Below, piece after piece: positions 2,243-61,500 of a DNA stretch of 64,000 nucleotides; the first letter of the stretch is position 1, and each line of letters starts with the position of its first letter. Where the stretch lies: positions 62,001 to 126,000 of the forward strand of contig CAMPDV010000846.1 of NCBI GenBank assembly GCA_946699065.1, in the 5' to 3' direction. This stretch comes from Loxodes magnus. Taxonomy: Eukaryota; Ciliophora; Karyorelictea; Loxodida; Loxodidae. The notes beneath the pieces are model-generated. The model was not told where the DNA came from and did no database searches. It saw nothing but the letters and a program-made list of their open reading frames with translations. A program made the translations under genes and the position numbers.

Positions 2243-2329
2243 AGCTCTAAGTTACTCTTAGGCTAACAAGTTAGATAGACAATTTACATCTATTAATACT
2301 AATAAATAATCCTTTATTTTCCAATTTAA

Positions 2330-3500
2330 TGAATAAGAAGCTATATTACTCCTGCATTTTATACTCTAAAGCATAAAAAGAAAGTTAGTCAGTATTATAA
2401 ATAAAAGGATTATAGTTAACTATGAAGGGATTAGTGAATTAATAGCTTTAGTTATTAAATAAGTTTGAGATTATATAACTATAACTAAAAGTATAAATAG
2501 ATATGCTTTCTTTATTCATATCTCTATTTAATATTTGAAGCATATTTCAAACTATTTAATCAGATAGTTATTAAAAAACCTATTAAGATTATTATTTTAG
2601 CACTAAAGAGAGACTTTAATTCAATCTCCTTAGTAATTATTTAAAATTAGAGTAGTCATTTCTAACTTAAATAGAGCCAGTATAACAAGGATAATTTGTA
2701 TTGATAAGATGAGAAATATATGAGATTCCAGTCATTGTCCAAAGACTCAAATTTTATAAAGCAGAATTAAAATAATTATTAAACTGCTTATTTTATTATA
2801 TCTATAACTAGAAGCTAAGACAAAAGTTTATCTAGTCTAATAATCTTATTTTAGTAATTTTTACAGCTGAAACAGATCTAAAAATGGTATACTTTAGTGA
2901 TTTCTTTTTCGTTTAAATGATAAATGCAATGCTAAGTTAATTAGTTAATTCCTATTTATCAATGACTTTCATTATATTAAGAGTATTGATATTTAACTAA
3001 GGCTTGTTGGATTTTTTTTGTCTTATCTATTGTTATTAATTGTGGTAATGGAATGGAAATTTGAATAGAAAGCTTGTATTTTTAAATCCTAATTTGTACT
3101 CTTTTTTATGCTAAAAGGTATTTGCTTTTGTTCTTTTAAATTTGATAAATAAGTTCATTGGATTTTTCCATCAGTAGCCTAACTTGTCTAAAGCTACATT
3201 GGATATAAGCTTATATCCCATAAGTTTTTTCTTATCTAGTAAAGATAACTTTATATACCCTAACTGATCCATGAGTTTAAACGATATCAAAAGACATTAC
3301 AAAAATATATCTCAGAGGTAAGATTAGTAGGCTTTAATAATACTGGCCTTTCTCTTAATGATCTACCTAAAAGCTTTAAAGGGGAAAAATATTACTCATT
3401 AATAGAATCTCTAACTCATTAAAAAGACATCGAGTCAAATAATTTTAGACTTAATATTTCAAGGTAAGAGACTGAAATAGGATTATGAAGGTCTAATTTG
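2330..3500. other. AT-rich stretch without recognisable gene
   Basis: I see no family motif, tandem repeat or structured RNA here. It is the spacer upstream of the REJ/GPS gene. The 3' part (about 3,400-3,529) should hold that gene's promoter and leader, but no clear element stands out. Confidence 0.5.
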
Positions 3501-3529
3501 TAATTTTCTTATTTCAAATTTCTGGTAAA

Positions 3530-5812
3530 ATGAAGATTTTAAATCTTCTTATGCTTGCTAGTTTAACTAAGACGATGAAGGTTTATATCTCTGGTGATGA
3601 GTATAGAGAGATGACTTAGTAAGATAACTGGACGTTGAATACCATAGTGATTGATAGTCCGAGTGAAGAATTGAGATATGAATGAAGTTGCTAAGTTTTA
3701 GACTAAAACTGAACTTCATATACTGAGGCAATTAAAAAAGAAGTAGAAGAAAAGTGTCATCTCTTTACATCTTCCATTACCTTAAAAGGATAGTAGTTTC
3801 CAGTATGAACATTCTTAGAACTTGATGTAAGTGTCTTTTTCAACAACCGAAAATAAGCCTCTGATAAAGTGTACTTAAATATAACCAGTAATAAGGTATC
3901 TCCAGTATCTATAGTGATACAGAATAATGAATATAACATAGTAAATCCAGCTAATGTCTTTATACTGTATGGAGTTGCTTCTATCTCAAGTGTAGATATC
4001 TAGACAGTTTCTTGATACCAAAGTCCTGGTAGCATTTGATAATCTGCTACCTTCCTTGCCACTACATTGTTTATATAAATAAATGCTTAATAACTGGAGT
4101 AAGGGAACTACTATACATTCACTTTTGAAGTATAAGGAGTGACTAAGTATACTAGCCAAAAAGTAATCTATGTTAACAGAGCTCCTTAAGCTGAAAATTT
4201 TATAGTGAGCTCTCAAAAAGGAAAAGCGTGGGATAGCCTATTTACTCTAAAATGTGATGATGCTACTGATTTAGATGAAGATTATCCATTAAGATACCAG
4301 TTCTTTTACATAGGATCGTTCAATCAGGAGTTTCCTTTAAATTAGATAGAGGAATATTACATCAAAAGCTTTAAGTTACCTTAAGTAGATTATAACAGTT
4401 CATTAGTAGTAGGAGTTACCATCTATGACTAGTTTAACGCATCTACTAAAATGTTTTTCACTATCTAAGTAGAAAGGACATTATAATCCATATCACAGGA
4501 AATCTAAACCCTATAAACTAGATAACTCGCCTCAGATGTAGAAGCTTAGAATTTTATGCATGACTTAGCTATTCAAATAAGTACCAGTGCTCCTAATCTT
4601 TCTCCTCTAGATATGAAACAGTTCTTATGATATCTATCCTAAAAAATAGAGAACCAAGAATAGATAACAATAGCAGTTTCAAGCTACTATGAAGTAAGAC
4701 TAAACGTAACATCTGAAAACCTGCAGAACTATATAGACAGCATCTACCAATGTCTTAACTAGTAAACAAAGTACCAGATATCCTAAAATTAGATGTCTTA
4801 GCTTATGCAGATCATTAAACAGTTCTACTATATAAAGCTTAACATCGAACAAGAAGTATAAGCTAGTCTAATAACTAGAAGAAGTACCTTTAACTATACA
4901 AACGATCATACTTTAACCTATCAAACTTCTAAAGTCTAAATTTGATAAATCTTACAAGTAATTCTTCTATCCTATACAAAGGAGAAGGAAATACCTACTT
5001 AAGAAATAGAGCTATGAGACTAGAGTCTTTTCTTTTTTATGATCTAAACTGTTGAAACTCCAAAGGAGAAGTAATGATAGTAATGGAATTTCTCTGCCTA
5101 AGTACTAAGCTACTCTAATGATCTCTAAGGAAGCTTTGTTGTAATCTTTACTATTTGAAGAAACAATCCATGTGAGATGGATGATTTGAGCTATATCAAT
5201 TATTTAAGTCTTGAAGTATACTAAATATCTGAAAAGACGTAAGAAGGATTCTATATCAAGAAGGATAGTCTGAAGAAAGTGAACATCTAAGTTGAGTATG
5301 TTCTGAACTATACCCAAACTTAGACATCTTCAAACGTAGTATGCCAAATGTGAGATATCAACGAATATAAGTGAGATAATGGAACTTCATGCTCTATTGA
5401 AAAAGCCCAGCTAACTAACTATTACAGGTGTAAAGGTAACTAGTCAGGACTTATTAGACTCGCTTCAATTGTATAAGAGGTAGAAGAATAAGAAAATGAG
5501 GAGCAAGAGGAACAATAGGAGGAAGAGAGTGGAGAAGAGCAAGATTAAGAGGAATAAGTTTAGGAAGAAGAAAATGAAGAAACGTAAAATGAAGAAGAAT
5601 CAAACTTAGACTTTAATTTAGATGAAAAAAGAAAGCATGAAAATTAATCAAGCTATAAGCATCCAGTTCCTGCTTACTTATTAGTAATCTTATGTTTCAT
5701 ATTTTTTCAACTTAGATGCTTATAATTCTGATTGTAGTGTCAAAAGACAAAAGAAAATTTAGATTAAGCTTTAGATTTTAGTTCTATAAATCTACCAAAA
5801 CTATTCCAATGA
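3530..5812 (+). CDS. REJ/GPS-containing polycystin-like membrane protein
   Basis: The ATG at 3,530 opens a signal peptide (MKILNLLMLAS). The same frame runs about 750 codons; I checked phase at 3683, 4013, 4286, 5342 and 5669. Blocks in order: Ig/PKD-like strands with ELRYEWSC (about 3,670) and VSWYQSPG (about 4,010); a REJ-type core with GKAWDSLFTLKC and DEDYPLRYQFFY (4,220-4,310); a GAIN-like middle; a GPS motif C-x2-W-D...W-x4-S-C at 5,342-5,392; an acidic Glu/Gln spacer (5,480-5,640); and one membrane helix (AYLLVILCFIFFQLRCL, about 5,670-5,720). Both GPS Trp are TGA (5,351 and 5,372). The frame has about 14 TGA against about 3 TGG. The usual H-L/T cleavage site is absent, so autoproteolysis looks unlikely. 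Known relatives are sperm REJ proteins, polycystin-1 and large ciliate REJ families in surface or ciliary membranes. Continuation past 5.8 kb is in another frame. Confidence 0.75.
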
Positions 5813-6480
5813 GCATCTTATGCTTCCATAATAAGCCCTTGAGTAAGAGTTCAATCCCAAACTCTAAGAAAAACTTCATTTTTATATATAGACTTTACTA
5901 TTACCATCTGATACTTACTGATAAATCTTATAACTACTACTTAATAGACAAGATTAGGGTAATTTAAAGGTTAAGATTTTGGAGTTGCGGTTTTAGTAGG
6001 TTTAGGAATGTCTGTATGAAAGTAGATATGCAAAAAGATCCTAATCTAGTGTTAGAAAATCTAGTAAGTCCTTATTTTCATCTACTGCGTTTCATGCTTA
6101 ATTGTCATTTCTTGCGTTTGCGCTGCTTTTAACACAGCAGAAACTCTTCCTTGAATACCTTGTCTCTTTATCAGCTACTTTTTCTACTATCTCCTATTTG
6201 ATCCTATTCTGGTCTTTTGATTATGATATTATGCTCCAATAAGATATTTAGATCTACAAGTGAATAAACCAAATCCTAAGTGTCATAGCCAGTGCATCCA
6301 TCTTAAGATGGTAAGTAGATGAATGAGGGTTAGAAGGAGAAAAAGAGCGACATAGCTAACCTGATAAGTAACTTCTAGATCGATGTTATGGTTAAAGATA
6401 ACACTTCCTAATTGAATAAAGACACACTATAGCAAACATAAATTACTACCCAACGTGATGCTAATGAATCTTATTTCCAT
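5812..6480 (+). CDS. Possible membrane-domain continuation of the REJ/GPS gene
   Basis: After about 5,810 the frame used above becomes less protein-like, while a frame shifted by one base is coherent to about 6,480. It includes hydrophobic helices (FLEYLVSLSATFSTISYLILFW near 6,150-6,220, and a second near 6,270) and a basic/acidic tail (VDEWGLEGEKERHS). Two such helices after a long linker fit the membrane part of a polycystin-1-like protein. The join could be an intron, a frameshift mutation or a sequence error; I cannot choose. A further charged stretch at 6,540-6,800 is in yet another frame. Confidence 0.4.
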
Positions 6481-6879
6481 CAGAAAATTAAAGGTCAATA
6501 TTTGGATAGTATTCATATCAATAATGGTGGACAGATAAAGGATAAAGCAGATAGAGGGACAGACCATTGAAAAGGAAAACCCAGAGATTAAACAGGAAAT
6601 TTTAAATCAGTCTGAAGACGCATAAACCTGTATGCAAAACTAAGAAGAAGTAATCATTCCTTCTTACTCTAGTTCTTCACTTAAATATCCTCATTCTAAA
6701 AAGGAAGTTTAGAACCCTCAAGATGAAGAAAAAAAAATGATAAATATGCTTTAATTTAGATCAATGGATGTAGAAGACTATAATGAAAGAATCAACTTAG
6801 ACCCATTGAAAAATAGCCAATATTGAAAATGAAATCTATACTTAAAACAAAGATATTGATTATCCTTATTTCTATAAGT

Positions 6880-8200
6880 CTATTTATCTTCAAGCTTTTA
6901 AAATTGGTTTAAGTATCTATTATCAGTATGTAAGAGCAACCTAAATAACAGGTAGTAAGAGCTAACCTGTTAGCTTAAGTGAATTGAAGTGAGTAATTAT
7001 AGCTTCAGTTTAAACTTATAATAGGCTTTGGCCTAAACCATCCTATGAGGAAAGCAGCAAGAATGAGACTTGATATCAGGAACTTTATTTTATGTCATAC
7101 CGTTTCGTTCCAAATCCAGGTATTAAACACCAAACACTATGTACTCACTTTAAAAAAGGCTTATCAAGCTTTGCCAAAAGCTGCTTAAATTGTTGTTTCT
7201 TGTCTTTCTTCTTAGCTAACTTTTTTCAGGACTAGCAAGACAATAAAGTAGAGTTAGGGGAGATAAGGAAAGGAGAGGGAAATAGATCCCAATAGGACTC
7301 TTTGAGCTAAACTCATAATCCTAGGCTAAAAAACTAGGCAAGAAAATGGTTAAAGAGCTAAAGACAAAGGAATGCAAGATGCTTAGATTTTATGCTTAAT
7401 GGTATGAAGATTTAGTAAGGAGATCAAGAATACTAAGCTAGTAAAAGGAACCAAAAGTAGGAGTTGGATTGGAAAAACTGGAGTAACTCTCATATCAAAA
7501 TATCGGTTTTAATGGAAGAGTAAGGAAGCTTATACGATCATCTTAAAGGTTTAAGAGAGGTATAAAGAGACTGGGGTAATATCTGGAAAAATATCCCAGG
7601 CGGTAGCTTTCATTGCTAGATATAAAAGCGAAAATATTGTAAAGCTACAATTTTTACAAGCTACAATACAACAAAGCTTAAAACTAAGTTCTAGTTTATA
7701 TTCTAAACATCTTAGGATTAGATAAAAGAAGGATAGCTCAAGAGTCTTCTCTTTTAGCCCTTCTCAAACACATCATTCTTATTTAATAGTAAACCAGCTA
7801 ATGGAGCTATAAGCTAAACCTTTTAAGGAGTATGAGCATCAGCAAATCTCCAGAATGACTCTATCTTCATCTACTTCTCTTCAGCTAAAGCATAAAACCT
7901 CAGCTTTATACTTAAACATTTCAAACTTCTTCCACTTTAAGCTTAAATATATTAACCTTGATAAAATAAACCCCTAAGGTGAGGTAAAAAAGGACAAAGC
8001 ACCTCTTAAAGAGAAAGCCAAACACCAGCTAAACTCCACATACTTCATATACCATCTAAAAGCTCCTTTAAGGGCATCAAATCATCTAATATCCAGCTTT
8101 CAAACCTTAAGACTAGAAAATTCCCAGATTTATATTGAAATTCAATTGATTTCTGATCTAACAAGCTTAGTTTCTTTAATAAAGGTACACTATAAATTTG
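6880..8200. other. Spacer with no assignable gene
   Basis: Base composition is a little richer in G+C than the surroundings and several frames read in protein-like fashion on the minus strand (about 7,560-8,000), but no family motif is visible. It could be an unrecognised gene remnant. Confidence 0.4.
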
Positions 8201-8222
8201 CCTTACTTTTATACCCTTAAAA

Positions 8223-9242
8223 ATGTAAACTAATTAAGCTTAAATTTAAGGATTGTGCTGCTATTGTAGGAGTAAGACTGTATATGAAGCTTAGGTTTTG
8301 ATATGTAAGCATGGGTATTGTAAGGACTGTTTCTTGGAGGTTTATGTAAAGAGTAGGTAGAGTTAGCAGAAACTCTAGGAGTTGGACTTTTTGTGTCAGG
8401 TTTGTGAGTAAAAATCAGAAATTACTGACACAGAGTTGATAAGTATACTCCTAGCCAGAGCTAAAATACCATTCTAAGGTAATAGTGAATTTGTATCTAC
8501 CTAAGGAGCTGAGTATAGATAAGCACCTATGATCTGCTAGCAATGCTAGAGAAAGGATTAGGAAATTGAATTCGTAGAGACTAAGTTAGACAAGCAGACT
8601 TAGGATTACTAGGAGCTTTATAACCAGAACTAGTAGTATATGGATTTAATAGAGCAGATGAATGAAAAAAAGGAGAATTAGCAAAACTACTAGCACGAGT
8701 AGGAGAAGCTAATAGAGTGATATGTAAGTTTAATTTAGCCTTGGTATATAGAAGTAAGACCACTAAAGCTATAAAAATAACTATTAAAACTTAATGCAAG
8801 AATATGCTTAATTCAGGAGCAGCAAGTCTAATATAAGGAGAAGAACTAAAGATTATAAAAAGAGTTAGATGAAATTGACTAAAAAATTCTGGAGAGCAAT
8901 TAGATGCTCCTAAACTATTAGCATGATAGTGCTCTAAAATCCTAAGAGCTTGAATCCTTTATTTAATAACTATAAGCAGAGTTAAATAAAAAGAAAGGGC
9001 TGATTATAGAATAAGAGAAGTAAATAAACCAGGTTAAAGAGGATAAAACCAAAGTGTTAATATCTGACTAGCAGTTTTAAGATTTGTAGTAGGAGAGTTA
9101 AAGCCTCATTGCTGAGATTTTGAAACTTAAGAATGAAAAAGAAAAATAATTGAAGCAACTTGAGTGTGTAAATCAAGGCTTGAAATTAAAAGGTCTTAAG
9201 TATGCATTCCTAATATTAAAGAAAATAAGATTGAAAAAATGA
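8223..9242 (+). CDS. RING-finger protein with long coiled coil (putative E3 ubiquitin ligase)
   Basis: The ATG at 8,223 starts MQTNQAQIQG and leads at residue 13 into a RING-like array: C-x2-C (CCYC), then C-x-H-x2-C-x2-C (ICKHGYCKDC), then C-x2-C (LCQVC). A further C-x2-C pair (ICQQC) follows near residue 97. From about residue 110 the protein is Gln/Glu/Lys-rich coiled coil to the end. RING domains bind two zinc ions and recruit E2 enzymes, so ubiquitin transfer is the likely role; the coiled coil may drive assembly or target choice. One TGA lies in frame at 8,718-8,720 (codon 166). The coiled coil continues without a break after it and uses TGG a few codons later, so readthrough as Trp is favoured over two genes. 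The TGA at 9,240 is taken as the end, but could also be sense. Confidence 0.7.
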
Positions 9243-9244
9243 GT

Positions 9245-10650
9245 ATTTAAAAGAAAATTCCAGTAATTTGGATTAAAAATAAACGTTATAAGATAAGCAA
9301 CAACTTATTTCAAGTAATTTTGAAATGATAAGATAAAGCAGGATCAGAATTTTAATTAGCGAAGCTTTATCTTAAATTTACTTATTTCTTTTGAATTATT
9401 GACTGTTATCTTAAAGAGATATAATTGATAAAAAATTTAAGATATGCAGCTTTTTGTTCTTTAATTTTGTGATAAAAAATGAATCAGATATATCCAAAGA
9501 TAATTAGATTCATAGTTTAATCAAAATCCTACAAAGCTAACAATTCTAAGGTCAGAAAAATAAAAAGAACGTAATCATCTAAACGAAAAAAGGTCATAGC
9601 TTATAGATTTTGACTAATCATTTAAAATGTCAGAAAGTGAGTTTTAGTTCGAAGAGAATAATTAATTCCCGCATGAAAAAGACTGAAAGTTGTTTAGTCT
9701 CAGTAGGTTTCTTCTGTACTCTCTTTGAGTAAAATAAATTAAAAAATTAAATTAAAACATAACGAGTGTTTAAATTTCCAAGGATCTTGTAGAAAGCTTT
9801 GAGGTTAGACAGTTTATAAGTAAACTATCTTATTTTTTAAGTTCTTTAAAAGGAATGATAACTTTGCTTCTTTAAGATGAAATAGGAGAATAAATAAATA
9901 TAAAGAAGATAATTATCCTGACAGACTCGATTCTATCCTTATCAGCAACTTTTTTTAGCAGTTAAGCAAGTGAAAATAACGTCATGATAATTTATTCTAT
10001 CCCTTCTAATCTCATGAATGATTTAAGAATGAAATTCAAAGATTAAGTAAGATAAAAAGTAAGAAGTAAACAGCTAAATCTCCTTCGCCATAACTAAGAT
10101 ATAAAAATAAAAAATAAGTTCAGAAAAAATTAAACGAAGAAAAATTTTAAGTAGAAGTGTGAAAGATAGAAAACAACTATAGCTTAAGTAATATGAGAAA
10201 GAAGAACAAAAAAGTCACAAGTCCCATATTCAAACATATCTAGTATATTTTTTATTAATATATCATTATCGTAAAATATACTCACTTAGTAAGATAAGGT
10301 TTTGTACTATTTTTAATAAGTCTAATTAAGTAACTATGAAAATAATAAAGAATGAAGTTTATTTATAGATGTTAACCTACTTACTTTTAGTCTAATGTTT
10401 TGTAAAGATATATAGCAATTAGCTGGTATAGCTTTAAGTATTTGAACGATATGAGTACTTTAAAAGTATTAAAGAGATTTGAGTGAATGAAGATAGAGAC
10501 AAAGTTAAATGATGAATGATAATGAGGATAATATGTTAAATAATAAGAGCCAGGATCTATATAACTATGCCAGCAAGAAAAAGATTTGACTGATACAGAT
10601 AGGATATCAAACATTCTAATCCACTTGATCATGATCACATGATGTAATAT
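9245..10650. other. AT-rich spacer without recognised gene
   Basis: No motif or repeat family was recognised between the RING gene and the 3' tail of the LINE. The only long standard-code frame (minus strand, 10,387-10,656) has no family features and is treated as chance. Confidence 0.4.
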
Positions 10651-16321: not shown

Positions 16322-17262
16322 TAATTAACCAAATTAGCTAAATTAGCCAAATTAACCAAATTGACCAAATTAACCGAATTAACTGAATTGACAAAATTAT
16401 ACGAATTAACCGAATTAACCGATTTAACCGAATTAAATAAAGCAACTAAATTAACCAAAATGAACAAATTAACCGAATTAACCAAATTAACCAAATTAAT
16501 CGAACTAACCAAATTAATTGAATTCACTAAAGTGACCAAAATAAACAAATTAGCCGAATTGAACGAATTAGCCAAATTAACCAAATTAACCAAATTAACC
16601 AAATTGAGTAAATTAACAAAAATAAACAAATTAACCGAATTAACCAAATTAACCTAAATAAACAAATTAGCCAAATTAACCAAATCAACTGAATTTTACG
16701 AATTAACCAAATTAACAAAATAAACCGAATTAACTGAATTAACCAAATCAACCAAATTTTACGAATTAACCAAATTAACCAAATTAACCGAATTAACTGA
16801 ATTAACAAAATTAACCAAATAAACCGAATTAACTGAATTAACCAAATTAACCAAATTTTACGAATTAACCAAATTAACTAAATTAACCAAATTAACCAAA
16901 TTTTACGAATTAACCAAATTAACCAAATTAACCGAATTTTACGAATTAACCAAATTAACCAAATAAACCGAATTAACTGAATTAACCAAATTAACCAAAT
17001 TAACCGAACTAACCAAATTAATTGAATTCACTAAAGTGACCAAAATAAACAAATTAGCCGAATTGAACGAATTAGCCAAATTAACCAAATTAACCAAATT
17101 AACCAAATTGAGTAAATTAACAAAAATAAACAAATTAACCGAATTAACCAAATTAACCTAAATAAACAAATTAGCCAAATTAACCAAATCAACTGAATTT
17201 ACTGAATTAACCAAATTGACCAAATTAACCGAATTAACCAAATTAAACGAATTAACTAAATA
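16322..17262. repeat. 9-bp minisatellite (AAATTAACC type)
   Basis: About 940 bp built from nine-base units such as aaattaacc, gaattaacc and aaattgacc, with occasional ttttacgaattaacc variants. Because the unit is three codons, one phase encodes Lys-Leu-Thr / Glu-Leu-Thr repeats on the plus strand, while the minus strand encodes Leu-Val-Asn type repeats. Long open frames on both strands are thus a by-product of the unit length. No flanking gene claims the repeat as a domain. Confidence 0.9.
16501..17190. repeat. 504-bp higher-order duplication inside the minisatellite
   Basis: The irregular block beginning cgaactaaccaaattaatt at 16,501 recurs at 17,005 and matches for about 190 bases, including its unusual agtgacc and aacaaaaataaac variants. 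The offset is 504 bp, exactly 56 nine-base units, so the duplication kept repeat register, as expected from unequal exchange or slippage. Confidence 0.8.
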
Positions 17263-27130: not shown

Positions 27131-27524
27131 TTTAATTTTTTTAATTAATAAGAGTTATTATTAAGTATATTGTTAATCACTATCACTATCAAAATCAGAC
27201 TTCTTCATCACTAGAACCATGAAATTCTTACAACCTGAATTCACATTAACAAACTCACCCCCTTATTTCACAAAACATACACTCTATAACATTATCTTTA
27301 AACTCATTTGTACCAACTTATATTAATTAAAACTTACCATCTATTTAATTAAATCGTAAAAAGCAACCTTACATACTAATATTTACTCCAATTATTACAC
27401 CCTAAAATTAATATCTAATTCTTAAATACCTCTTTCTAATATTGATTAAAATATATTACTTGAGTAAACTTATAAGCATATGTTAAATTGTATATTACCA
27501 TCTGATCAGTAAATACTTACTTTC

Positions 27525-27905
27525 TATACAGTTAAGAAATATTAAAATGTTTACATCCTATAAGTTAAGAATATTAAATGCTTACCAGCTATAAGTTAAG
27601 AATATTAAAATGTTTACGTTCTATAAGTTAAGAATATTAAATGTTTACCAGCTAAAAGTTAAGAATATTAAAATTTTTACGTTCTATAAGTTAAGAATAT
27701 TAAATGCTTACATCCTATAAGTTAAGAATATTAAATGCTTACAATCTATAAGTTAAGAAATATTGAAATAACTTACGAGCTATAAGTTAAGAATATTAAA
27801 ATGTTTACATCCTATAAGTTAAGAATATTAAAATGCTTACTTTCTATAAGTTAAGAATATTAAAATGCTTACATTCTATAAGTTAAGAATATTAAATACT
27901 TACCT
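27525..27905 (+). repeat. Short tandem array (about 32-nt units) in copy B
   Basis: About 12 units of the form ataagttaagaatattaaa followed by atgcttac and a variable 4-5 base linker (attct, atcct, cagct, gttct). The same unit, plus a 27-nt derivative lacking the linker, makes the huge array of copy C. In copy A the site holds only scraps (about 18,420-18,530, 'atgtcaacttac' repeats). Confidence 0.85.
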
Positions 27906-31095: not shown

Positions 31096-31102
31096 AATAT
31101 AA

Positions 31103-31174
31103 GCCAGGCTAGCTCAGTCGGTAGAGCGTCAGACTCTTAATCTGGTGGTCGTGAGTTCGAGCCCCACGCTGAGT
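31103..31174 (+). tRNA. tRNA-Lys (CUU), degenerate
   Basis: A full cloverleaf can be drawn: D stem gctc/gagc, anticodon loop ctcttaa with CTT (Lys) at 31,134-31,136, T loop ttcgagc. Both internal pol III boxes are well preserved and a T run follows (31,174-31,178). The acceptor stem is poor: C3-A70 and A4-G69 do not pair, and 1-72 and 5-68 are G-U. The T stem has an A-C mismatch. This suggests a tRNA pseudogene or tRNA-derived repeat rather than a working gene. It is a G+C-rich island in AT-rich DNA. Confidence 0.75.
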
Positions 31175-31178
31175 TTTT
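31174..31178 (+). terminator. Pol III T-run terminator of the tRNA-like gene
   Basis: Five T residues directly after the tRNA body, the usual pol III stop. Confidence 0.6.
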
Positions 31179-39499: not shown

Positions 39500-41420
39500 C
39501 GGAACTTGTTGTTGCATATTTCATTCCTAATTCGATTTCATATAATCAACTCATTATTCTCCATCACTTTCATAACAAATGCAATCTTTCTATCTCAAAC
39601 GCAGTCTTTAGAATAGCATTTTTCATCACGTTAACCATTCCCTAATTGATATTACTAGCAGATTTAAGAGCTTAGCATTTCACTTAGTATTAATTGATCA
39701 GAATCCAGGAATTAGTTTTTCATATATTCGATTTCTTGCTGTGCTGGATTAACGCATTTACAATGGCTATTGCAATAATTGCATTCTACTACTTTACACA
39801 GTCTTCACAATAATATTCATTTTGTAAATGCAAGACTGAAGATCATTTATCATCAGAGGTATATTTACTCAAGCACAAGTCGCTGAAAAAGATGTACTAA
39901 GAAACATTATAATTGAATAATTTCATTACTCTAAGAAGAGTATCAAAGTTACAATAACTATTTCAACAATCACTATCATAATAATAATCTCCTACTCTTT
40001 TAACTATAAAGCATAAGGTATCTAAACATTTTATGCAATCTCTTCCATCTTCTAAACATTACTTAACAAAAAATTAAAGATTGCAAAATCCATTATTAAT
40101 TAACTCTGGATAGCAAGGAAATCCTTCATAAGAATCTGATTTATTCGTTACTTAAAAGTAACATTAAGCATTATCATAGCCACAGTAAAAAGAATTGCAA
40201 TTTAATCGCTTAATTATCCATCCTGAAAAATTCATCCATTGCCAGACTTATACTGCAACATTCTTTGACTAAATCTGTTGTACAACAATTCAAACCATCA
40301 TAATTATAATCAGGACTTAGTAGTTCTTCATTACATATTCAATTTCCTATTTAACTGATATTATGATAACTAAAATCATTTCATCTACATTATTTTTAAT
40401 TACATATTAAAAAGCACTCGTTAAAACACAAACATTTGTCACTAGTACAATTATTATCCTGAATTATACAAAACTCATATAAATCATTTTGATTAAGGAT
40501 GTTTCTACACTAAACAACGATTGATTCATAATTGCATTCTAAAAAACCACATTTTCTATCATACTAATTATTACATAGCTTATCTAAAGTACCTTTCGCT
40601 TGAGAGCATGACAAATAATCATCTTAGCCTTGTTGATTATTATCAAAAAAGCATTCTTCGTAATAGCATCATTATTGAAAAGTTTCATCTCCAATTTGTT
40701 CGATTTTGTAGCCTTTCTCTAAATACTCTTTACAATATTTGCCATCTCAGTTACATTATTTATTATAGCAACTTAAGTCGCATATGCTATCTCCTTAAGA
40801 TTGAAGACATGTATTATTGGTATCTATGCAAGCTTAGCAGTCATTGCCATTGTTCTTTCATAGACTATTCTAATCTCTTTTAGTATTTTTGTAGCAAACT
40901 ATATCGCATATATTGCCACCTATCAAATTCTAGTTACAATTATATTGTGGATTTAAGTTGAGAAGATAGTAAGCAATCATTTTAATCGTGGCAATAATCT
41001 TAATTGCACCTTTAATCTAATACATTTACACAATTTTAACTCATTTTCTACGGATTATTTACACAGTTCTATTGATTATTTTCATCTTACTACTAAGGTT
41101 ATTCTCAGTTAGAATAAAGCCATTCCTTATCACTGCAATCTAATCAAGTTTGGTTAGAACTTGGAGTACTTTAGCACACAGGAACTAAACACTAAGGATC
41201 GAGGTCCTTATCATCTTCAATAATTGATCTATTCATAAGGGTTGTGAAGCAGGTCGCCACTGGGAATTTGTAATTTTTTAGTGTATTATAATCGTAAAAT
41301 GAAGATTCTTTTCTACAACAATCTCCTTAATCTCACTAACAACTTTCAGTCATACAATTTTCGTTGCCTACTTACCTTTTATATTATTAAAGTTTTAATC
41401 CAAGCAGCCTGGAGAACAGA
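39500..41420 (-). other. LNR (Lin-12/Notch repeat)-like Cys-rich region
   Basis: Several short Cys clusters match the end of an LNR, the clearest being NCMTESCQWDQGDCC (about 41,315-41,360), which fits C-x-W-D-x-G-D-C. Others are SYCNFD (about 39,960) and RCNQDYCHDQNDC (about 40,975-41,015). LNRs are calcium-binding extracellular modules. The conserved Trp is a TGA at 41,333-41,335. Frame changes between clusters prevent counting the repeats. Confidence 0.5.
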
Positions 41421-43008: not shown

Positions 43009-46000
43009 ATGAAAACTTTTTTCCTTATTATACCATTCTCTGCCGTTATTTCTTTTAAGCTATTTTTAATTACTTCACCTTTGACCAAACCCCATTTAGC
43101 TTAATATTTATAGCTTGGATTGGAAACTAGCATGTTTAATAAAACAGATTTCTAGACTTCAACTTTGTTTATAGGAAATTGAAAATATAAAATTAGGTTT
43201 TAAAAGAGAGAAATAAATCCTACAAAGTACAAATAATCCTGGATATTACTTTCAGTGTTTATTACACTCAAAGAATAAGCAACTTGGAATTATCTGTCCT
43301 TCATCTTGTGGCATATAGAACTAATTAGCAGTTTTAAAGAGAAAATATTTATTCAATAATGCCAACTTACCAACAAGAAGGTAAAGCACTTTAAGATTTA
43401 TTCAAATTACTTAAATTTACCAAAGTCTTTTATTTTAACTAGAAAGAAGAACCATTTTATAGAGCACCAGAGGCAGATGTTTATTGATAACTCTAAATAC
43501 TGAAAATAACTTCATCATATTGGACATCTAAAAGTCAATACGCTTGAATAGTTGGTTTAGAATCTTCCAATATAATGAATCCTGAAGTAATAGCCACTAT
43601 AGATGAAACAAATTTTAGTAGTGTCCTAGATGATGGATTAATTGGATTAACTCCAAAAGGATTTATTCCCAAAAATTACCTTGAATTATCATATTACTAT
43701 GTCAATCTATTCTTAGCCTTAATAGATTAAAATTCTCAGTTTTTAAGTAAGATTTATTAAAGTAATTTGCCTAAATATTTTAAGGCCATTCAGCTCTAAA
43801 ATTTTAATGACAAAAATCAAATTATTCCAGTGTTTTCTGTTTACAATATTCAAAATAGGAAACCAGTTTAAGTTCTTCAAATTTAGAATGAAAATCTGAA
43901 AAAATTAGTAGTGTTAGTTTACCCTGGACCAAGCTTAACAGCGCCTAATTATGATTTTAAGATAAAAATGTCTTATTCAACTAATGATAATGAACCTAAT
44001 AACTAAAGCTCTAAGAAAGTTATTACCAATCCTCCTCTTTTTATGCCCTTCATTATTGGATTCATTAACAAAGAAGAAATTTTAGCGAATAATTATTCTT
44101 TATAAGAGATCCCTTATTCTTATGGGGGCTTTAATTTGATTAAAATTTTAGCTTATAAGTATTAAACGAAAAAGACTTTGATTTAGGAGTTGTACATCAA
44201 GGTAGCTTAATAATAAGAAGCTACTATTTGACTTATAATCTTCTTTAAAATATAGGAATAAGAATTCCTTACTTAATTGCTAGTAAAGAAGACGAATTAA
44301 GTAATAGTTCCATATTCACTAACGTAATTGATAACTATATCTCTTAAAAGCGTTTTAGAGATATGTATATCAAATTTATCAATAAAAATTAATGAAACTA
44401 AGTTGGAATGTTTTTGAAGAATATGAGCCTTCTAACTTTTAAATATAAAATGAAATAAAAGTTAAAATAATTGAGGAAGGCAAGAATATCTTAAACTCTA
44501 ATGAATCTACTTTTATATTGTAGAAAGATTTATTTAATCAGACTCTTTACGATGATATTGCTTACTAAATTATTTAAAGACAGATCAAAATCATACTTTC
44601 ATCTCCTACTATGGCTTTAATTTACCAGACTGTTTCAATATTTTTTTACCTAAGATGGAAAGAAGGAGATACAAATTTTATTCTTTTATATACTGCTAAT
44701 AACATAGAAGCTGTGATATAAAATAACATATGGCAAGCTTAAAAGCTTTTGCATGGTTCAATAACAATTACTCCTATTTAATATATAGGAGAAGTTGGAT
44801 AAATGCTATATCAACTACAGAAAGATAGTATAAGTAATATTCCCTAAGCTCTTTGCTACTATGTAGAATAACCATTTATAGTTGCTCATGGTCTTAAAAG
44901 TTGTATTGAACAGGGATTAAATTACTATAATTCAGATATTTTAATTACTTAAATTAAAAATACTAAATTTACAGCATGTAGCGGAACCATAAAATTCGAT
45001 AAGAATAGTAATTTTAGGGATAATTTAAACTTTTATTTCATGAGCAATATTTATGATTCTAATAGAAATCTACACTTAGTACCTTATCTTTAGTACTGCT
45101 AAATTTTTGCTATTGTATGAAATAAACATAGCGAAGCTATTTGAAACGATAATACAACTAACACTCCTAAAGATACTTTTGAACTTTATCGCGATAACTG
45201 CGATTTTTCAGTACGAAGAGTTTAAAAATATAATGAAGGATTTAGAGCGATAGTTATATATTCAGTGTTAATTATGCTGCTTACCTTGCTGGTTTCAATT
45301 TATGGAATAAAAATTTGGAAATCGACAAATTTTGAAATTTTAGATTAAGAAATGTGAATGAGTAGTGAAGATGAATTCTTTCTCAAAATTCTAGTTGTTT
45401 AGTTTGGCTTCTATATTTTGATAGGATCTGATGTAAGAAACTTACTTTTTTAAATTCCAATAATTTAGAATTTTTCCTTAGATTTCATAGTTAAACAAAT
45501 AAGTAGTTTAGCATTTTGGGGAATCATTAATCTTTGTACTGGTTTTGCTTTTTTAACTACTTCTTAATCTTGGCTTTCTTGTTCTAATTTGAAATAAGAT
45601 ACAAAAATAGTTGGATACTAAGAAATTTAGGGTAACTAACATACATAGTTTCACCTGCTTTAATACAGTTCACTTTCATGCCAATTATCTTTATTTTAAC
45701 TGAAATACTAAAGTGTAGCTATGGAAGAGATGAAAATGTTGATTTCAAAATTTTGCAATCAGAAATATTTTTAGATTTAGACTGTTCTAAGCAATGTATT
45801 TCAAAACCACATATTATAACCATAGCATTTTAAAGTTTAACTTTGTTCTTCTACATTCCTTTAGTAATAATGTTTAGTCCACACTGGTAAGAGCTGCTAG
45901 TAGTCACAATTCATATAAAGTATCACCCTTGGTATGTAATTTTGAAATACTGTTCTTAAGTTTTTATAGTAATGATAGGGAAGCTATTAAGAGAGTTTGA

Positions 46001-46700: not shown

Positions 46701-49540
46701 AGAACCTAAACAAATTAACTAAATCAGGTTCTATTTATTTTAGCAGCTTTTTATACCTAGACATGACTACTAGCCCTATAGTTAGAATGATCACTATACC
46801 TACTAAAAGTATTACTTGCAAAGTAATTCTATGATTATCACTTGCATTTATAGATATTCCTGATATAGTACCTACTAATGCTACTAGTAAAAGAAGAATA
46901 AACTATAGTCAGTTAACTTTCTAGTAAGTAATTACCTTTTTTATTAAAACTAAGCAAAAGTAAAGAAGGTAATAGAGTATATGATAGCATGACTAATAGG
47001 ATACAATTAAGTATCTAGTTAATAAGTACTAGAAATTAGCAAATCAAAGTCTTTAGAATTATGAATCATGTCTTCTACTTTATATTAATGGTGTCTTTCT
47101 GAACTTCCTATCAATGTGGACGAATCAATATAACTAGTGGAACATAGAAAAATAAAGCTAAATTACTAAATATTATAGTTATTATATGAGGTTAAGAAAG
47201 ACACTACTTGGAACAATCTAAGTCTAAAAAGGATTCTCAAACTTCTATTTCAAAGTTTAGATTACTATCCCTTCCATAACTACATCTCATTATTTAAGCT
47301 AGTAAGAAAATTACTCCTATCAAAGTTATTTCTATCAAAGCTGGAGAGCATTTATAAGTTAGTTTTCCTTTATTTCTAAGTAACTTCAAATTATAATAGA
47401 AAAGCTATTGCCAGTAATACTGTTAAGAAACCAAAACCACTTCATAGCTTTATTATACCTCAGAACGCTAAATCTGTTACTCTCGTTGTCAAATGACTAA
47501 ACGAAATAGACTAAACAGAACTTATTTAGTATAGAAGTGGTCTTAAATCAGGTCCTAATAAAATGTATTAGGCAAATTAAATAAAAAGTATCTAAGAAAA
47601 GAATTCATCTTCACTTGTCATTCATACTTCTTTGCTCAAATTTCCTATTTTCTAGATTTTAATATTTTAAATCCAAAAAGTGAAGTTAGCAAAGCTATAC
47701 TAAATAGTATTACTTATTATATTATTATTGCGTTGTATCTTCTCTCATATTTTTTAACTCTCCGATCTGTAAAATCACAGTTATCACTATATAGTTCAAA
47801 TGAATCTTTAGGAATGTTAGTTGTATTATCATTTCAAATAGGTTCATTATGTTTAGTTCAAACGATAGCACAAGTTTGGCAGTACTCAAGATAAGGCACA
47901 AGATGTAGATTTCAGTTAGAATCACAGTAATTATTCATAAAGAAGAAGTTCTGATTATCTCTAAAGATGCTATTTTTCTCAAATTTAATGCTTCCATTAC
48001 ATTCTAAAAATTTCTTATTTCTCATTTTTTAAATCAGATTAGCAGGAATATAGTAGTCTAAGCCTTCTTCTATGCATTGCTAAAGGCCATATGCTAATAT
48101 TATTGGCTATTCTAAGTAGTAGCAAGAAGTGAAATGAATAGAGCTATTGCATTACTCTTGTACTTCTAGTAATTTTTAGCCTTCTTCTCCTACATACTCA
48201 ATTGGAGTTATGGTCATTAAACCATTTAAAAGCCTTCTTACAGCTTTGAGTACTTAAGGCTAAATTTAAGCTTCGTAATTATAAGCATTATATAAAAGCA
48301 CAAAATTAGTATCTCCCTCTTACCATCCTATTTCCATTAGTTTATCAACTGAAAACCAAATAAAATTAGCAGCAGGTGAGGAAAAGATAATTTTGATTTC
48401 CCTTTGCATGATTTGATTTGCAAGTTGTTCATATACTTGAAGATTTCATACATTATCTCCTTTTATGAAAGTAGTATCATAAGAGTTCATTACAGTTCTA
48501 TAAGTTTCTTAAAGATTTTATATGCTAAAATTTCAAATTTATCGATTTGAAGGCTCGAAATCTTCGAAAACAATTCCAACTTTATTTAAATTAATTTTTT
48601 CAGTTAATTTGAGGTACATTATACCAAATAAATTTCAGGAAATGTAGTTATCTAGAACATTACTATAGAGATTGGTGTTGTTAAGTTGATCTTCTTTACT
48701 TGTAATAATATAAGGAATATTAATTCCAAGTTATTAGAAAGTAAAATAAACTGGACTTCGATTTGATATAATCAAAGACGCTAAATGGCTAATTCCTATA
48801 TCACTTTATTATCTGCAAGTACTTATAAAGTAAAGCTTAAGTTGAAATACAACCAGCCATAGGACAGTGGATTCTCTTTAAGTAAAGATCTTCCTGGTAT
48901 TATTTTTTCTGTGCTTATGTAAGAAACTACACAAGAAATGTGATAAGAGGGTAATTAAAGAATCGATTAAGTTGAAGACATTTATGATCCGTTAGAGTTA
49001 GTGGAATAAGAAAAATCTATATAAAAATTATCAGGTGGAGTGTAAGTTTGTCCTGGATATAGCACTGAATTCTTCTATATTACCCAATCCTAAGATATTT
49101 TAAAAACTTCATCAGGCTATCCTTTCTAGTTATTATAAACAGAAAACTAGGCTTTTATTTTATTATTTTGATTAAAGAGTTGTTTGAGCATTTGCTTATT
49201 GGTAAAGTAGCTTTCTTAAGAAACAAAAGTTAAGGAAAGTGTCGTATAGTATGCAGTCAATTCGAAATAGGATTTCGGAATAAATCCTTTCGGAGTAATT
49301 CCAATAACTCCGTCGTCTAGAACATTGATATGAATTTAGGTATTGGATTAAACTAATTAAGTTACTTCTGGATTAATCAAATAAGAAGATTGTAATCCTA
49401 ATATCTAAAGGTATTTATCAGCTGTAATTTATAAAAGGTAAATTTAAAGCATAGCGAAAGCTTATCAACAAATATCTGGTTATAGTAAACTACAGGAGCA
49501 GCATAGAGTCTTAGCATCTTAGTGATTTATTATGGAGTAG
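46700..49540 (-). pseudogene. PBP1/ANF-receptor-like membrane protein, copy 2 (tail-to-tail)
   Basis: A paralogue of the plus-strand gene in opposite orientation. Matching blocks include LDDGVIGITPKGFIPKSY (about 49,300), GINIPYIITSKEDQLNN (48,700), IKIIFSSPAANFIW and WQEGDTNFVLLY (48,310-48,400), NGSIKFEKN (47,985), LHLVPYLEYCQTCAIV (47,890), NDNTTNIPKDSFELY (47,800), then helices to about 46,720 (TLQVILLVGIVIILTIGLVV). Many differences from copy 1 are synonymous. It has one frameshift near 48,810 and probably one near 49,450, and at least nine in-frame TGA, including the TGA in AFWGII (47,460-47,462) that is TGG in copy 1. The N-terminus beyond 49,540 was not found. Likely a cell-surface receptor. 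Confidence 0.6.
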
Positions 49541-52500: not shown

Positions 52501-53950
52501 TCATCCTCTTATTTTTAATTAACTAAATCATACACTAAATTAATACAAACAATACATCAAAGCTAGAATCATTTTATAAAACTGTAAGATCTATTCAATA
52601 AATATAAAAGCGAGTGCATTGCTAAACTAATAACCACAGATACAATAAATCACTACTTTAGTAATTCATTAATCAATAGATTTATTTTCAAACTTCCAAA
52701 ACTTAAACTTATATTCTTCTTTGTATGCTCTAGTTATTATATACTCGCATCAAGACAAATACCTCAATAATAACCAAAAACTCTCTTCCTTACTCAATTA
52801 AGAAATGCTTTTTTAATCAAATTATAAGTATAAACTTTATAAAAAGCTTAATAGCTCTTGGTATATTATAATTACCTAAGCTTTTCATTATTTATTTTTC
52901 TTTTACCTTTAATACTTAAACAGCAGATTCAGAAGTTTTTTACAGATATTATTTGGATATAATGTATACTAAACTCCTCTTAGCTATTCTTTTAAACATA
53001 GTGCTTATGTTTAATATGATCAGTTTTCTTTTTTCACTTCTATAAGCAAATTTTTTCTGGTTGATCTTTAGGTCTACATCCATTGACTAATTTTAAAGGA
53101 ATATGCTTTTGGTTAGCACTACAAATTGGCTGAATTTTGTTTCTAATCATTCGATTCTAATATTTGCTGAGTTCTTATTTTAAGTCTTTTAATATGCGAT
53201 TTCCTATCAAGCTCTTATACATTTCTTAAAAGTTTAAAATTCTCCTATTACATAATTTTAGTTCTTAAAGTAAATTTTGCTATTCGTATCTAGATTGGTA
53301 TAGATCCTATTCAGCAGAGATTTTTGCGTAAAATGTTAGTTTTTTATATAGTAGGTAATGAAAGGATAAAAATAAGTGAATGATAAATTTAGTTTATAAG
53401 GTAAATAGTAAATTTTAATTGATTATTGTATATAATATTTAATTATTTAATTTAATTTTAACTTAAATATATTTTCTAATGGATAGTTCGTTGATCTCTT
53501 TAAATAAATGGTAAAACAGTTTTGCTTATAGCATAAAAATCTAAAGGGATAAGCATTATATTTAATTTAAGTTATATAGAAATAATAGCAAAAATATAAG
53601 AAAATAAAATATTTTTCTTATATTTAAATGATTTAAAAGGATGTAAATATGTTTTAATAATAATATACTTATAAGTATAATTAATTAATTAATACTTTTA
53701 TACTTAATTCTATTTAAACTAAGTCAGGATATTATTTTCCTTATATCAGATAATATAATTAAACTATTATAAAGTAAGTTATAAAATTATAAATCAAAAT
53801 AAAAATATATAATTTATTAAGAGTATCTGTTTAACTAATATTTTAAATTACCTAATTATTCTCTAGGTAAAATTACTTTTTTTCTTAAATATGAAATTCT
53901 ACCTATTTTGTTTTTTAAAACTGGAAAATATAATCAACTACGATAAAACT
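49550..53950. other. Long AT-rich region without recognisable gene
   Basis: About 4.4 kb of low-complexity AT-rich sequence. I looked for Cys/Trp motifs, membrane helices and RNA-like G+C islands on both strands and found none I could support. Undetected exons are possible, because with three reassigned codons almost any frame is open. Confidence 0.4.
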
Positions 53951-53984
53951 AAAGGTAGGTCTTTAATATTTAGATAAAATATTC

Positions 53985-54690
53985 CAAGAACATACGGTCC
54001 TGTATTATCTGTAGCGATATCTAGTAACTATAATTGAATCGTATCAGGAAGTAGAGATAATACGATTAGGATATGGGACTTAACAACTGACTAGTGTAAG
54101 ATTACTTTATAGGGACATACGAATCCTTTATTATCTGTAGCGATCTTAAGAGACCAAAAAAGGAATCGTACCGGGAAGTTCTGAAGGTACGATAATTTAA
54201 TGGAACTTAGCAACTGGTTAGTTAAAAAGTTCTTTGTAAGGACATACGAATGATGTAAATTCTTTAACGATATCAATTGATTGGAATTGAATTTTATTGG
54301 GAAGTTACGATAAATCGATCAATAAATGGGACTAGCTAATGTAAGGGTTCTTTGTGGGGAGATAAAGATTCTGTGTTTTCTGTAGCGATTTCAAGTGACC
54401 AGAACTGATTATATCAGGAAGTATTGATAAGATAATCAATATATGAGAATCCACAATTAGTCAGCTACTTCGAACTCTTCAAGGTAATTCAAATAATGTA
54501 TCAAGTATTCAATTTAGTAATGCTTCAAGTGTTTCAATTTCTGGATCATGTAGATATGGAACTTTTATATAGGTGAATGTATATAAACTCTTTAAGGCTA
54601 AAAAATGATCTAAATTCTATAGCATTGGGTAAGGACAAGAAATAAATAGTATCAGGAGGATATGATAATACTGTGAGAAAGTGGAAAATA
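53985..54690 (+). pseudogene. WD40-repeat protein, decayed
   Basis: Five WD40 units follow one another: PVLSVAISSNYNWIVSGSRDNTIRIWDL, in pieces VAISSNYNWIVSGS and DNTIRIWDL (53,995-54,075); a second with GSSEGTIIQWNLATG (about 54,170-54,205); a third with SIDWNWILLGSYDKS and NKWD (54,270-54,330); a fourth with SGSIDKIINIWES (54,410-54,450); and a last with SGGYDNTVRKWKI (54,650-54,690). WD40 propellers are protein-binding scaffolds. At least three one-base frameshifts separate the units. TGA stands at the Trp before I/L-x-x-G-S in three units (54,035, 54,288, 54,416) and at the W of the WD dipeptide in unit four (54,444), while other units use TGG there. Confidence 0.75.
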
Positions 54691-57800: not shown

Positions 57801-58540
57801 TAGGATTAAAATTCTTTACTTAATAATAATTATCTTTCTATTCCTTATCCACATACATTTAACTTTTATTATCTAAAAAACAAATTACTCGCTAAAAAAA
57901 ATACCTTTAATACTCTTTATACTCTTATCACTCTTATCACTTTTTATACTCCCTACACTCTAAATACTCTAAATAGTATTTATAACCAACTTTATTAACT
58001 AACCATCCACACACTCTCGTTACATATTTATAAACTCTTTTATTTTTCCTTATAACAAATCTTTCATATATAAATATATTAACTCATAAACATATTAACA
58101 TATATATAAATATAAACATATATATATAGTTATTAATTTAATTTTTTTAATTAATAAGAGTTATTATTAAGTATATCAGTTGTTCACTCTCAAACTTTGT
58201 GACCAGACTCATCCATCACTACAACCATGAAGTTCATACAACCTGAATTCACATTAACAAACTCACCCCCTTATTTCACAAAACATACACTCTATAACCA
58301 TTATCTTTAAACCATTTGTACCAACTTATATTAATTAAAACTTACCATCTATTTAATTAAACCGTAAAAAATAAACTTACATACTAATATTAACTCCAAT
58401 TATTACATTCTAAAATAAATATCTAAACCTAAAATACCTTTTCCTAATATTGATTAAATATATATTACTTTCCTCAACTTTATAAACAAATGTCAAATTG
58501 TATATTACCATCTGATCAGTAAATACTTACTAACTAAAAG
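54850..58540 (+). repeat. Dispersed long repeat, copy C
   Basis: It aligns in order with copy B from 'gacttaagaaacaacatgag' to the start of the tandem array, without B's two insertions, so it preserves the empty sites. It has its own internal duplication: the block ending in tatactatataaaa after 'acaaatattttattttc' occurs at about 57,240-57,300 and again at about 57,605-57,665. Confidence 0.8.
55839..56072 (-). CDS. Small repeat-borne ORF, copy in C
   Basis: The counterpart of 24,972-25,166, 77 residues, same start (MFLFLNEILNSYNRYTANQ) and about 55 aligned residues before an indel changes the end. Function unknown; it may be a chance frame. Confidence 0.3.
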   Translation of the reverse strand: MFLFLNEILNSYNRYTANQFLQTDNILSNEYKFENYKLLTIIKSDNFQTNFLQNLGNTAGNSLRLNNVIIKTIFKKQ

Positions 58541-58544
58541 TTTA

Positions 58545-61500
58545 GAAATATTAAAATACCTACCTAAGTTAAGAAATAGAAAATGACTTACCTAATTTAA
58601 GAATATTAAAATGCTTACATTCTATAAGTTAAGAATATTAAAATACTTACATTCTATAAGTTAAGAATATTAAAATGCTTACGAACTATAATTTAAGAAA
58701 TATTAAAATACTTACGAACTATAAGTTAAGAATATTAAAATGCTTACATGCTATAAGTTAAGAATATTAAAATGCTTACTCACTTTAAGTTAAGAATATT
58801 AAAATACTTACATGCTATAAGTTAAGAATATTAAAATGCTTACCTAAGTTAAGAATATTAAAATGGTTACTCTCTATAAGTTAAGAATATTAAAATACCT
58901 TACCTAAGTTAAAAATATTAAAATACTTACATGCTATAAGTTAAGAATATTAAAATGCTTACCTAAGTTAAGAATATTAAAATGGTTACTTTCTATAAGT
59001 TAAGAATATTAAAATGCTTACTCACTTTAAGTTAAGAATATTAAAATACTTACATGCTATAAGTTAAGAAGATTAAAATGCTTACCTAAGTTAAGAATAT
59101 TAAAATGCTTACCTAAGTTAAGAATATTAAAATGCTTACTCACTTTAAGTTAAGAATATTAAAATACTTACATGCTATAAGTTAAGAATATTAAAATGCT
59201 TACCTAAGTTAAGAATATTAAAATGGTTACTCTCTATAAGTTAAGAATATTAAAATACCTTACCTAAGTTAAAAATATTAAAATACTTACATGCTATAAG
59301 TTAAGAAATATTAAAATGATTACCTAAGTTAAGAATATTAAAATGCTTACCTAAGTTAAGAATATTAAAATGCTTACGAACTATAATTTAAGAAATTTCA
59401 AAATGCTTACCTTCTATAAGTTAAGAATAATAAAATGCTTACCTAAGTTAAGAATAATAAAATGCTTACCTAAGTTAAGAATATTAAAATGCTTACCTAA
59501 GTTAAGAATATTAAAATAATTACCTAAGTTAAGAATATTAAAATGCTTACCTAAGTTAAGAATATTAAAATGCTTACCTAAGTTAAGAATATTAAAATGC
59601 TTACCTAAGTTAAGAATAATAAAATGCTTACATGCTATAAGTTAAGAATATTAAAATGCTTACTCACTTTAAGTTAAGAATATTAAAATGCTTACCTAAG
59701 TCAAAAATATTAAAATGCTTACCTAAGTTAAGAATATTAAAATGCTTACCTAAGTTAAGAATATTAAAATGCTTACCTAAGTTAAGAATATTAAAATAAT
59801 TACCTAAGTTAAGAATATTAAAATGCTTACCTAAGTTAAGAATATTAAAATAATTACCTAAGTTAAGAATATTAAAATGCTTACCTAAGTTAAGAATATT
59901 AAAATGCTTACCTAAGTTAAGAATAATAAAATGCTTACCTAAGTTAAGAATATTAAAATGCTTACCTAAGTTAAGAATATTAAAATGCTTACCTAAGTTA
60001 AGAATAATAAAATGCTTACCTAAGTCAAAAATATTAAAATGCTTACCTAAGTTAAGAATATTAAAATGCTTACCTTAGTTAAGAATATTAAAATAATTAC
60101 CTAAGTTAAGAATATTAAAATGCTTACCTAAGTTAAGAATATTAAAATAATTACCTAAGTTAAGAATATTAAAATGCTTACCTAAGTTAAGAATATTAAA
60201 ATGCTTACCTAAGTTAAGAATATTAAAATGCTTACCTAAGTTAAGAATAATAAAATGCTTACCTAAGTTAAGAATATTAAAATGCTTACCTAAGTTAAGA
60301 ATATTAAAATGCTTACCTAAGTTAAGAATAATAAAATGCTTACCTAAGTTAAGAATATTAAAATGCTTACCTAAGTTAAGAATATTAAAATGCTTACCTA
60401 AGTTAAGAATAATAAAATGCTTACCTAAGTTAAGAATATTAAAATGCTTACCTAAGTTAAGAATATTAAAATGATTACCTAAGTTAAGAATATTAAAATG
60501 CTTACCTAAGTCAAAAATTTTAAAATGCTTACCTTCTATAAGTTAAGAATATTAAAATGCTTACCTAAGTTAAGAATATTAAAATGCTTACCTAAGTTAA
60601 GAATATTAAAATGCTTACCTAAGTTAAGAATATTAAAATGCTTACCTAAGTTAAGAATATTAAAATAATTACCTAAGTTAAGAATATTAAAATGCTTACC
60701 TAAGTTAAGAATATTAAAATGCTTACCTAAGTTAAGAATATTAAAATGCTTACCTAAGTTAAGAATAATAAAATGCTTACCTAAGTTAAGAATATTAAAA
60801 TGCTTACCTAAGTTAAGAATATTAAAATGATTACCTAAGTTAAGAATATTAAAATGCTTACCTAAGTCAAAAATTTTAAAATGCTTACCTAAGTTAAGAA
60901 TATTAAAATGCTTACCTAAGTTAAGAATATTAAAATGCTTACCTAAGTTAAGAATATTAAAATGCTTACCTAAGTTAAGAATATTAAAATGCTTACCTAA
61001 GTTAAGAATATTAAAATGCTTACCTTCTATAAGTTAAGATTATTAAAATGCTTACCTTCTATAAGTTAAGAATATTAAAATGCTTACCTTCTATAAGTTA
61101 AGAATAATAAAATGCTTACCTAAGTTAAGAATATTAAAATGCTTACCTAAGTTAAAAATATTAAAATACTTACATGCTATAAGTTAAGAATATTAAAATG
61201 CTTACCTAAGTTAAGAATATTAAAATGCTTACGAACTATAATTTAAGAAATATTAAAATGCTTACCTAAGTTAAGAATATTAAAATGCTTACCTAAGTTA
61301 AGAATATTAAAATGCTTACCTAAGTTAAGAATATTAAAATGCTTACCTAAGTTAAGAATATTAAAATGCTTACCTAAGTTAAGAATATTAAAATGCTTAC
61401 CTAAGTTAAGAATTTTAAAATGCTTACCTAAGTTAAGAATATTAAAATGCTTACCTAAGTTAAGAATATTAAAATGCTTACCTAAGTTAAGAATATTAAA

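Follow-up and report, generated by a model that had tools for sequence, protein, structure and literature searches.

The window, by which is meant the whole 64,000-nucleotide stretch of Loxodes magnus DNA that was analysed, contains a long reading frame at 3530-5812 that was previously read with UGA as Trp and with UAA and UAG as Gln. The features at this locus, and at a second locus that bears on the genetic code, are as follows.

3530..5812, forward strand: table-27 coding sequence, part of a gene for a REJ/GPS-like membrane protein, from a cross-validated codon score and collinear paralogues
3581..4450, forward strand: REJ domain, Pfam PF02010
3683..3685, forward strand: TGA, Trp of a Y-x-W-x-C strand (6 TGA and 1 TGG in seven paralogues)
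4013..4015, forward strand: TGA, Trp (1 TGA and 6 TGG in seven paralogues)
4229..4231, forward strand: TGG in the window where most paralogues have TGA, an exchange in the opposite direction (6 TGA and 1 TGG of seven)
4943..4945, forward strand: TGA, facing TGG in two paralogues and Gln or Tyr in five
5342..5461, forward strand: GPS-like C-x2-W-D...W...C...C pattern, two of whose codons (5351 and 5372) are TGA, from paralogue columns
5810..5812, forward strand: TGA at the previously drawn gene end, most likely a sense codon given in-frame paralogue similarity beyond it
5888..6196, forward strand: hydrophobic continuation of the coding frame, matching paralogous loci L052 and L050, with TGA at 5909, 6017 and 6152
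53891..54665, forward strand: WD40-repeat stretch, the second locus used for testing the code, with matches to Pfam WD40 and related families in two frames

When 3530-5812 is read with table 27, it comprises 761 codons without a frameshift, close to the earlier estimate of about 750. It contains 14 TGA (13 internal and the last at 5810) and 3 TGG, as had been counted approximately before, and the TGA positions singled out by the first-pass annotation (3683, 5351, and 5372) are correct. However, table 27 has no dedicated stop codon and every frame is open under it, and therefore neither the open frame nor its number of TGA codons is evidence by itself. The TGA count per frame was likewise rejected as evidence for the code, as the two other forward frames of the same interval contain 15 and 32. 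Because a self-trained codon scan gave a flat table without signal, a two-fold cross-validated score was used instead, in which each half of the frame served in turn to train a codon-usage model that was then applied to the remaining half. The 3530-5812 frame scored +30.7 in one test half and +19.3 in the other, and the five alternative frames were negative in both; since the score is positive for this frame alone, the frame is coding. A promoter and terminator scan was uninformative for eukaryote DNA. Searched at full length, the frame retrieved nothing from the protein collection within an E cut-off of 1. NCBIfam yielded no family, and a PDB sequence search returned one chance-level match (E 1).

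Several other features were recorded elsewhere in the window. Two similar predicted proteins lie in inverted orientation approximately 2.3 kb apart (44392-45357, forward strand; 47636-48619, reverse strand); TGA occurs at equivalent positions in the two (AIVw-x-KH and Iw-NDNTTN), and neither has a Pfam match. A Cys-rich frame at 39800-41400 on the reverse strand has a sub-threshold Notch/LNR match (19.6 bits; cut-off 21.2), and in a frame at approximately 8240-9200 on the forward strand a RING-like arrangement of Cys and His precedes a coiled-coil-like stretch, both noted by eye, with Pfam RING at E 0.5 at best. Tandem repeats include a long 27-base array that reaches the window end (58538-64000), a 32/63-base array with a similar unit (27510-27904), and a 9-base array (16323-17261). 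The sole tRNA found in the window is a tRNA-Lys(CUU) at 31102-31176 on the forward strand.

The REJ-like core proposed for the long frame was borne out by Pfam. Although the domain was missed with the full-length frame as query, the piece 3530-4460 matches PF02010 over its residues 18-307 with 76.2 bits (E 2.6e-21; cut-off 25). For the GPS motif proposed downstream, the Cys/Trp pattern is complete, with both Trp, in paralogues L034 and L037, but no Pfam GPS match was obtained in 4440-5500. Within this stretch the first Trp is kept in all seven aligned paralogues, and the second in two, with Phe in the other five. Proteins of the polycystin-1 type carry REJ, GPS, and hydrophobic segments, with PLAT after the first membrane helix. 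The frame and its continuation resemble polycystin-1 and receptor-for-egg-jelly proteins in the Pfam REJ domain, in the GPS-like Cys/Trp pattern, and in the hydrophobic segments that follow, and differ from them in having neither a Pfam GPS match in 4440-5500 nor a PLAT match in the three unspliced forward frames of 5642-9300, where introns could hide PLAT.

Related sequences are numerous in the genome assembly that was searched (705,730,643 bases in 7843 contigs). Of 197 REJ candidates, 93 were scored, so that REJ occurs in at least 93 places (for example, L029-L048); this number is a lower bound, because the window's own gene is missing from the list. Twelve of the REJ matches listed are on contig C94 and five on C446, and several are closely similar. 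REJ membrane proteins form a large family here, and the interval 3530-5812 represents part of one of its genes. The published account of the L. magnus genome (PMC11441545) never uses the word REJ in its main text.

If UGA encodes Trp, then TGA and TGG should exchange at the same positions among relatives, and this is what the paralogues suggest. Of 20 REJ loci retrieved, 14 match the window frame at E < 1e-60; the alignment spans more than 600 columns in 13 of these and 406 columns in L043. Seven of the 14 (L034, L035, L037, L038, L042, L044, and L048) were aligned to the window using MAFFT with TGA masked; they amount to about four independent lines, because L038, L042, L044, and L048 are 78-86% alike. 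The proposed Trp of the Y-x-W-x-C strand at 3683 is supported by its column, as are the two proposed GPS Trp: the column at 5351 holds 6 TGA and 1 TGG, and that at 5372 holds 2 TGG and 5 Phe. Overall, TGG is present in at least one of the seven paralogues at 5 of the 13 internal TGA columns, a result equalled by none of 100,000 random draws of 13 columns. The other eight columns are without TGG, which is expected at the 24-28% identity between the window and these paralogues and is uninformative.

Two further analyses of the REJ family point to the same residue. When each of the 20 amino acids was substituted at the TGA codons, the REJ profile scored Trp highest (76.2 bits), ahead of Tyr (71.0), Phe (68.3), and the other 17 (61.8-67.7). 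Additionally, in a 12-sequence REJ alignment with TGA, TAA, and TAG masked, Trp was enriched 42-fold opposite TGA (92 of 375 facing residues), and Gln was the residue most enriched opposite both TAA (2.4-fold) and TAG (3.6-fold). As a control, the same method correctly named 51 of 57 sense codons, ATG and TGG being omitted because they have no synonym by which they could be seen. An estimator weighted by BLOSUM assigned Tyr to TGA, but it was dropped because its control failed: it identified 36 of 58 sense codons correctly and called TGG Phe.

Independent genes were also examined. From 150 scored tubulin rows, 28 loci were taken, namely the best eight, whose matched part is without TGA, and 20 picked for TGA; the reference was a 208-residue segment, with two Trp, of a solved beta-tubulin. 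In these loci TGA faces Trp at 28 of 36 occurrences and TGG does so at 13 of 15. The remaining eight TGA are opposite other residues (one each in L012, L013, L025, and L028, and two each in L026 and L027). In both REJ paralogues and tubulins, the TGA columns favour Trp. Similarly, the reading of UAA and UAG as Gln is supported by the REJ enrichment and by the tubulins, where TAA faces Gln at 102 of 205 occurrences and TAG at 20 of 46. Swaps at TAA/TAG on the REJ profile, for which ten residues were tried, hardly discriminate (Gln 76.2, Ser 76.0, and Lys 75.7 bits). In the WD40 stretch, Trp is the best of ten residues at TGA for five of the six families listed (57.5 bits in the top family, with Tyr at 55.2), whereas for the Prp19 family both Tyr and Phe outscore Trp. 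Comparison of the repeats by eye suggests that this stretch is frameshifted, and an 'intron' placed in it by a home-made gene finder looks more like a frameshift; it is perhaps a pseudogene or an assembly error. Owing to the Prp19 exception and the apparent frameshift, the WD40 stretch lends weak support to UGA as Trp.

The codon UGA also appears to terminate genes in this code, and the earlier reading is amended to that extent: UGA is, as judged from the tubulin sequences, a stop codon as well as a Trp codon. In all eight alpha-tubulin loci, which were named by eye, the first TGA past residue 380 directly follows the acidic tail (also recognised by eye) and the copies diverge beyond it, although the eight are similar copies on one contig and are in effect one observation. 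Three eRF1-domain matches were found in the genome, namely two eRF1 copies approximately 35 kb apart (L055 and L056) and a Pelota-like gene (L054), the last so named by eye. Relative to the solved eRF1 3e1y_A, L055 has RAQNIKS for TASNIKS and FLCENTF for YLCDNKF, at positions that we take to be those of the motifs taking part in stop recognition. According to the genome paper, UGA is the only stop codon of L. magnus, and in karyorelicts including Loxodes it is translated as Trp where the poly-A tail lies far enough downstream (PMC11441545). A near-cognate tRNA-Trp(CCA) with a 4-bp anticodon stem is reported for Loxodes in two further papers (PMC13092985, PMC12005148). For Condylostoma, Blastocrithidia and Amoebophrya, the published picture is one from which a nuclear tRNA-Trp(UCA) would depart.

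Both ends of the gene as first drawn are affected by these considerations. By eye, the paralogues appear to have further sequence ahead of the residue that aligns with window residue 16; therefore, the start at 3530 is uncertain and the signal peptide proposed there is doubtful. No upstream exon was found when 2300-3600 was compared with four paralogue loci, the weak similarities to L050 (27-32 bits) being in a frame that is not its gene frame. At the other end, the TGA at 5810 is probably not a stop, because 5888-6196, in the same frame, is 30% identical to L052 across 105 columns (E 6e-11) and also matches L050 (E 1e-7); the gene end previously placed at 5812 is thus probably wrong. The TGA at 6152 is opposite TGG in both of these loci, and the gene finder, which allows short introns, extends the gene to 6019, in loose agreement with the paralogues. 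That the gene nevertheless ends at 5810-5812 and encodes a single-pass protein is unlikely, despite several observations in its favour. The previous TGA is 27 codons before 5810, which suits the thinning of coding UGA over approximately 20 codons before true stops described in the genome paper's available text (PMC11441545), and scoring windows that extend beyond 5820 have a lower codon score. The 5810 column is also without Trp in the seven paralogues of the masked MAFFT alignment, and BLAST pairs this codon with Leu of L035, though with a Trp codon of L044. In contrast, a true end at 5812 does not account for the roughly 105 matching columns beyond it, and GC over 5800-6699 is 0.29-0.36, compared with 18.6% published for 3' UTRs (PMC11441545, in part). 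It is highly unlikely that UGA 5810 serves in one gene as both stop and Trp codon, yielding a single-pass REJ receptor in the former case and a multi-pass form in the latter; were this true, an ambiguous code would be acting as an isoform switch.

Two other readings dispute the code itself. If the frame were a decayed pseudogene, then its TGA codons would be true stops and the Trp coincidences would result from chance or from decay of TGG to TGA. The openness of the frame is no bar to this, since table 27 leaves any frame open, and off-frame readings of the locus also match paralogues, by up to 107 bits against L050 with composition correction off. However, in-frame matches to the same four loci reach 234-285 bits (271 for L050), TGA stands for TGG and TGG for TGA at the same columns (the window TGG at 4229 being one example), and the tubulin loci carry TGA at the same two Trp columns; decay is accordingly an extremely improbable account. 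The Condylostoma code (table 28), under which UAA, UAG, and UGA may each be sense or stop, shares with the present data the sense use of all three codons in tubulin and REJ. Nevertheless, the alpha-tubulins end at TGA in eight of eight cases, these being similar and non-independent copies from one contig, and UGA is called the only stop codon in the L. magnus paper as far as its available text goes (PMC11441545), so that table 28 is hardly credible here.

The explanation favoured with high confidence is that the window derives from a nuclear genome using table 27, that of a karyorelict ciliate and almost certainly of L. magnus, and that translation of the REJ piece continues through its UGA codons, 5810 probably among them, into hydrophobic sequence to at least 6196. 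Under this code, UAA and UAG specify Gln, and UGA specifies Trp within a gene but stop where the gene ends; the sequence comparisons above show these codon meanings. The ribosome would tell coding from stop UGA by how close the codon lies to the end of the mRNA, a near-cognate tRNA-Trp being involved; this mechanism is taken from published work. The first-pass annotation had attributed the DNA to a ciliate with all three stops reassigned, or else to an undescribed lineage with such a code; the former is right and the latter unneeded. Loxodes magnus is a karyorelict in NCBI taxonomy, and its genome paper, in the text available, describes a macronuclear assembly of 706 Mbp and states table 27 for karyorelicts including Loxodes (PMC11441545).

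Among known systems, the karyorelict code of L. magnus and Parduczia has the same three codon meanings, and no difference from it was found within the accessible text of the papers concerned (PMC11441545, PMC4967479). UGA makes up 0.120% of codons in Parduczia, in which the same reassignments are described (PMC4967479, in part); it is commoner in the window frame (14 of 761), which is one gene and not a genome average. The code of Condylostoma magnum likewise gives all three stops sense meanings, with the same amino acids, and UGA as Trp is documented there by mass spectrometry; as a feature of its own, UAA and UAG can also terminate (PMC4967479, in part). The nonstop code of the trypanosomatid Blastocrithidia also reads UGA as Trp and reassigns all three stops, but its UAR codons specify glutamate and UAA is also a terminator (PMC12153298, in part).

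Overall, the reading of UGA as Trp and of UAA and UAG as Gln in this DNA is correct, supported, and already known, because table 27 has been published for L. magnus (PMC11441545) and the reassignments for Parduczia (PMC4967479), as the available portions of these papers state. Its main value is as a control, in which a rare nuclear genetic code was recovered correctly from raw sequence alone. For gene prediction in such a genome, ends drawn at UGA need to be checked against relatives, as a coding UGA within a long gene can mimic a stop, which is probably what happened at 5812.
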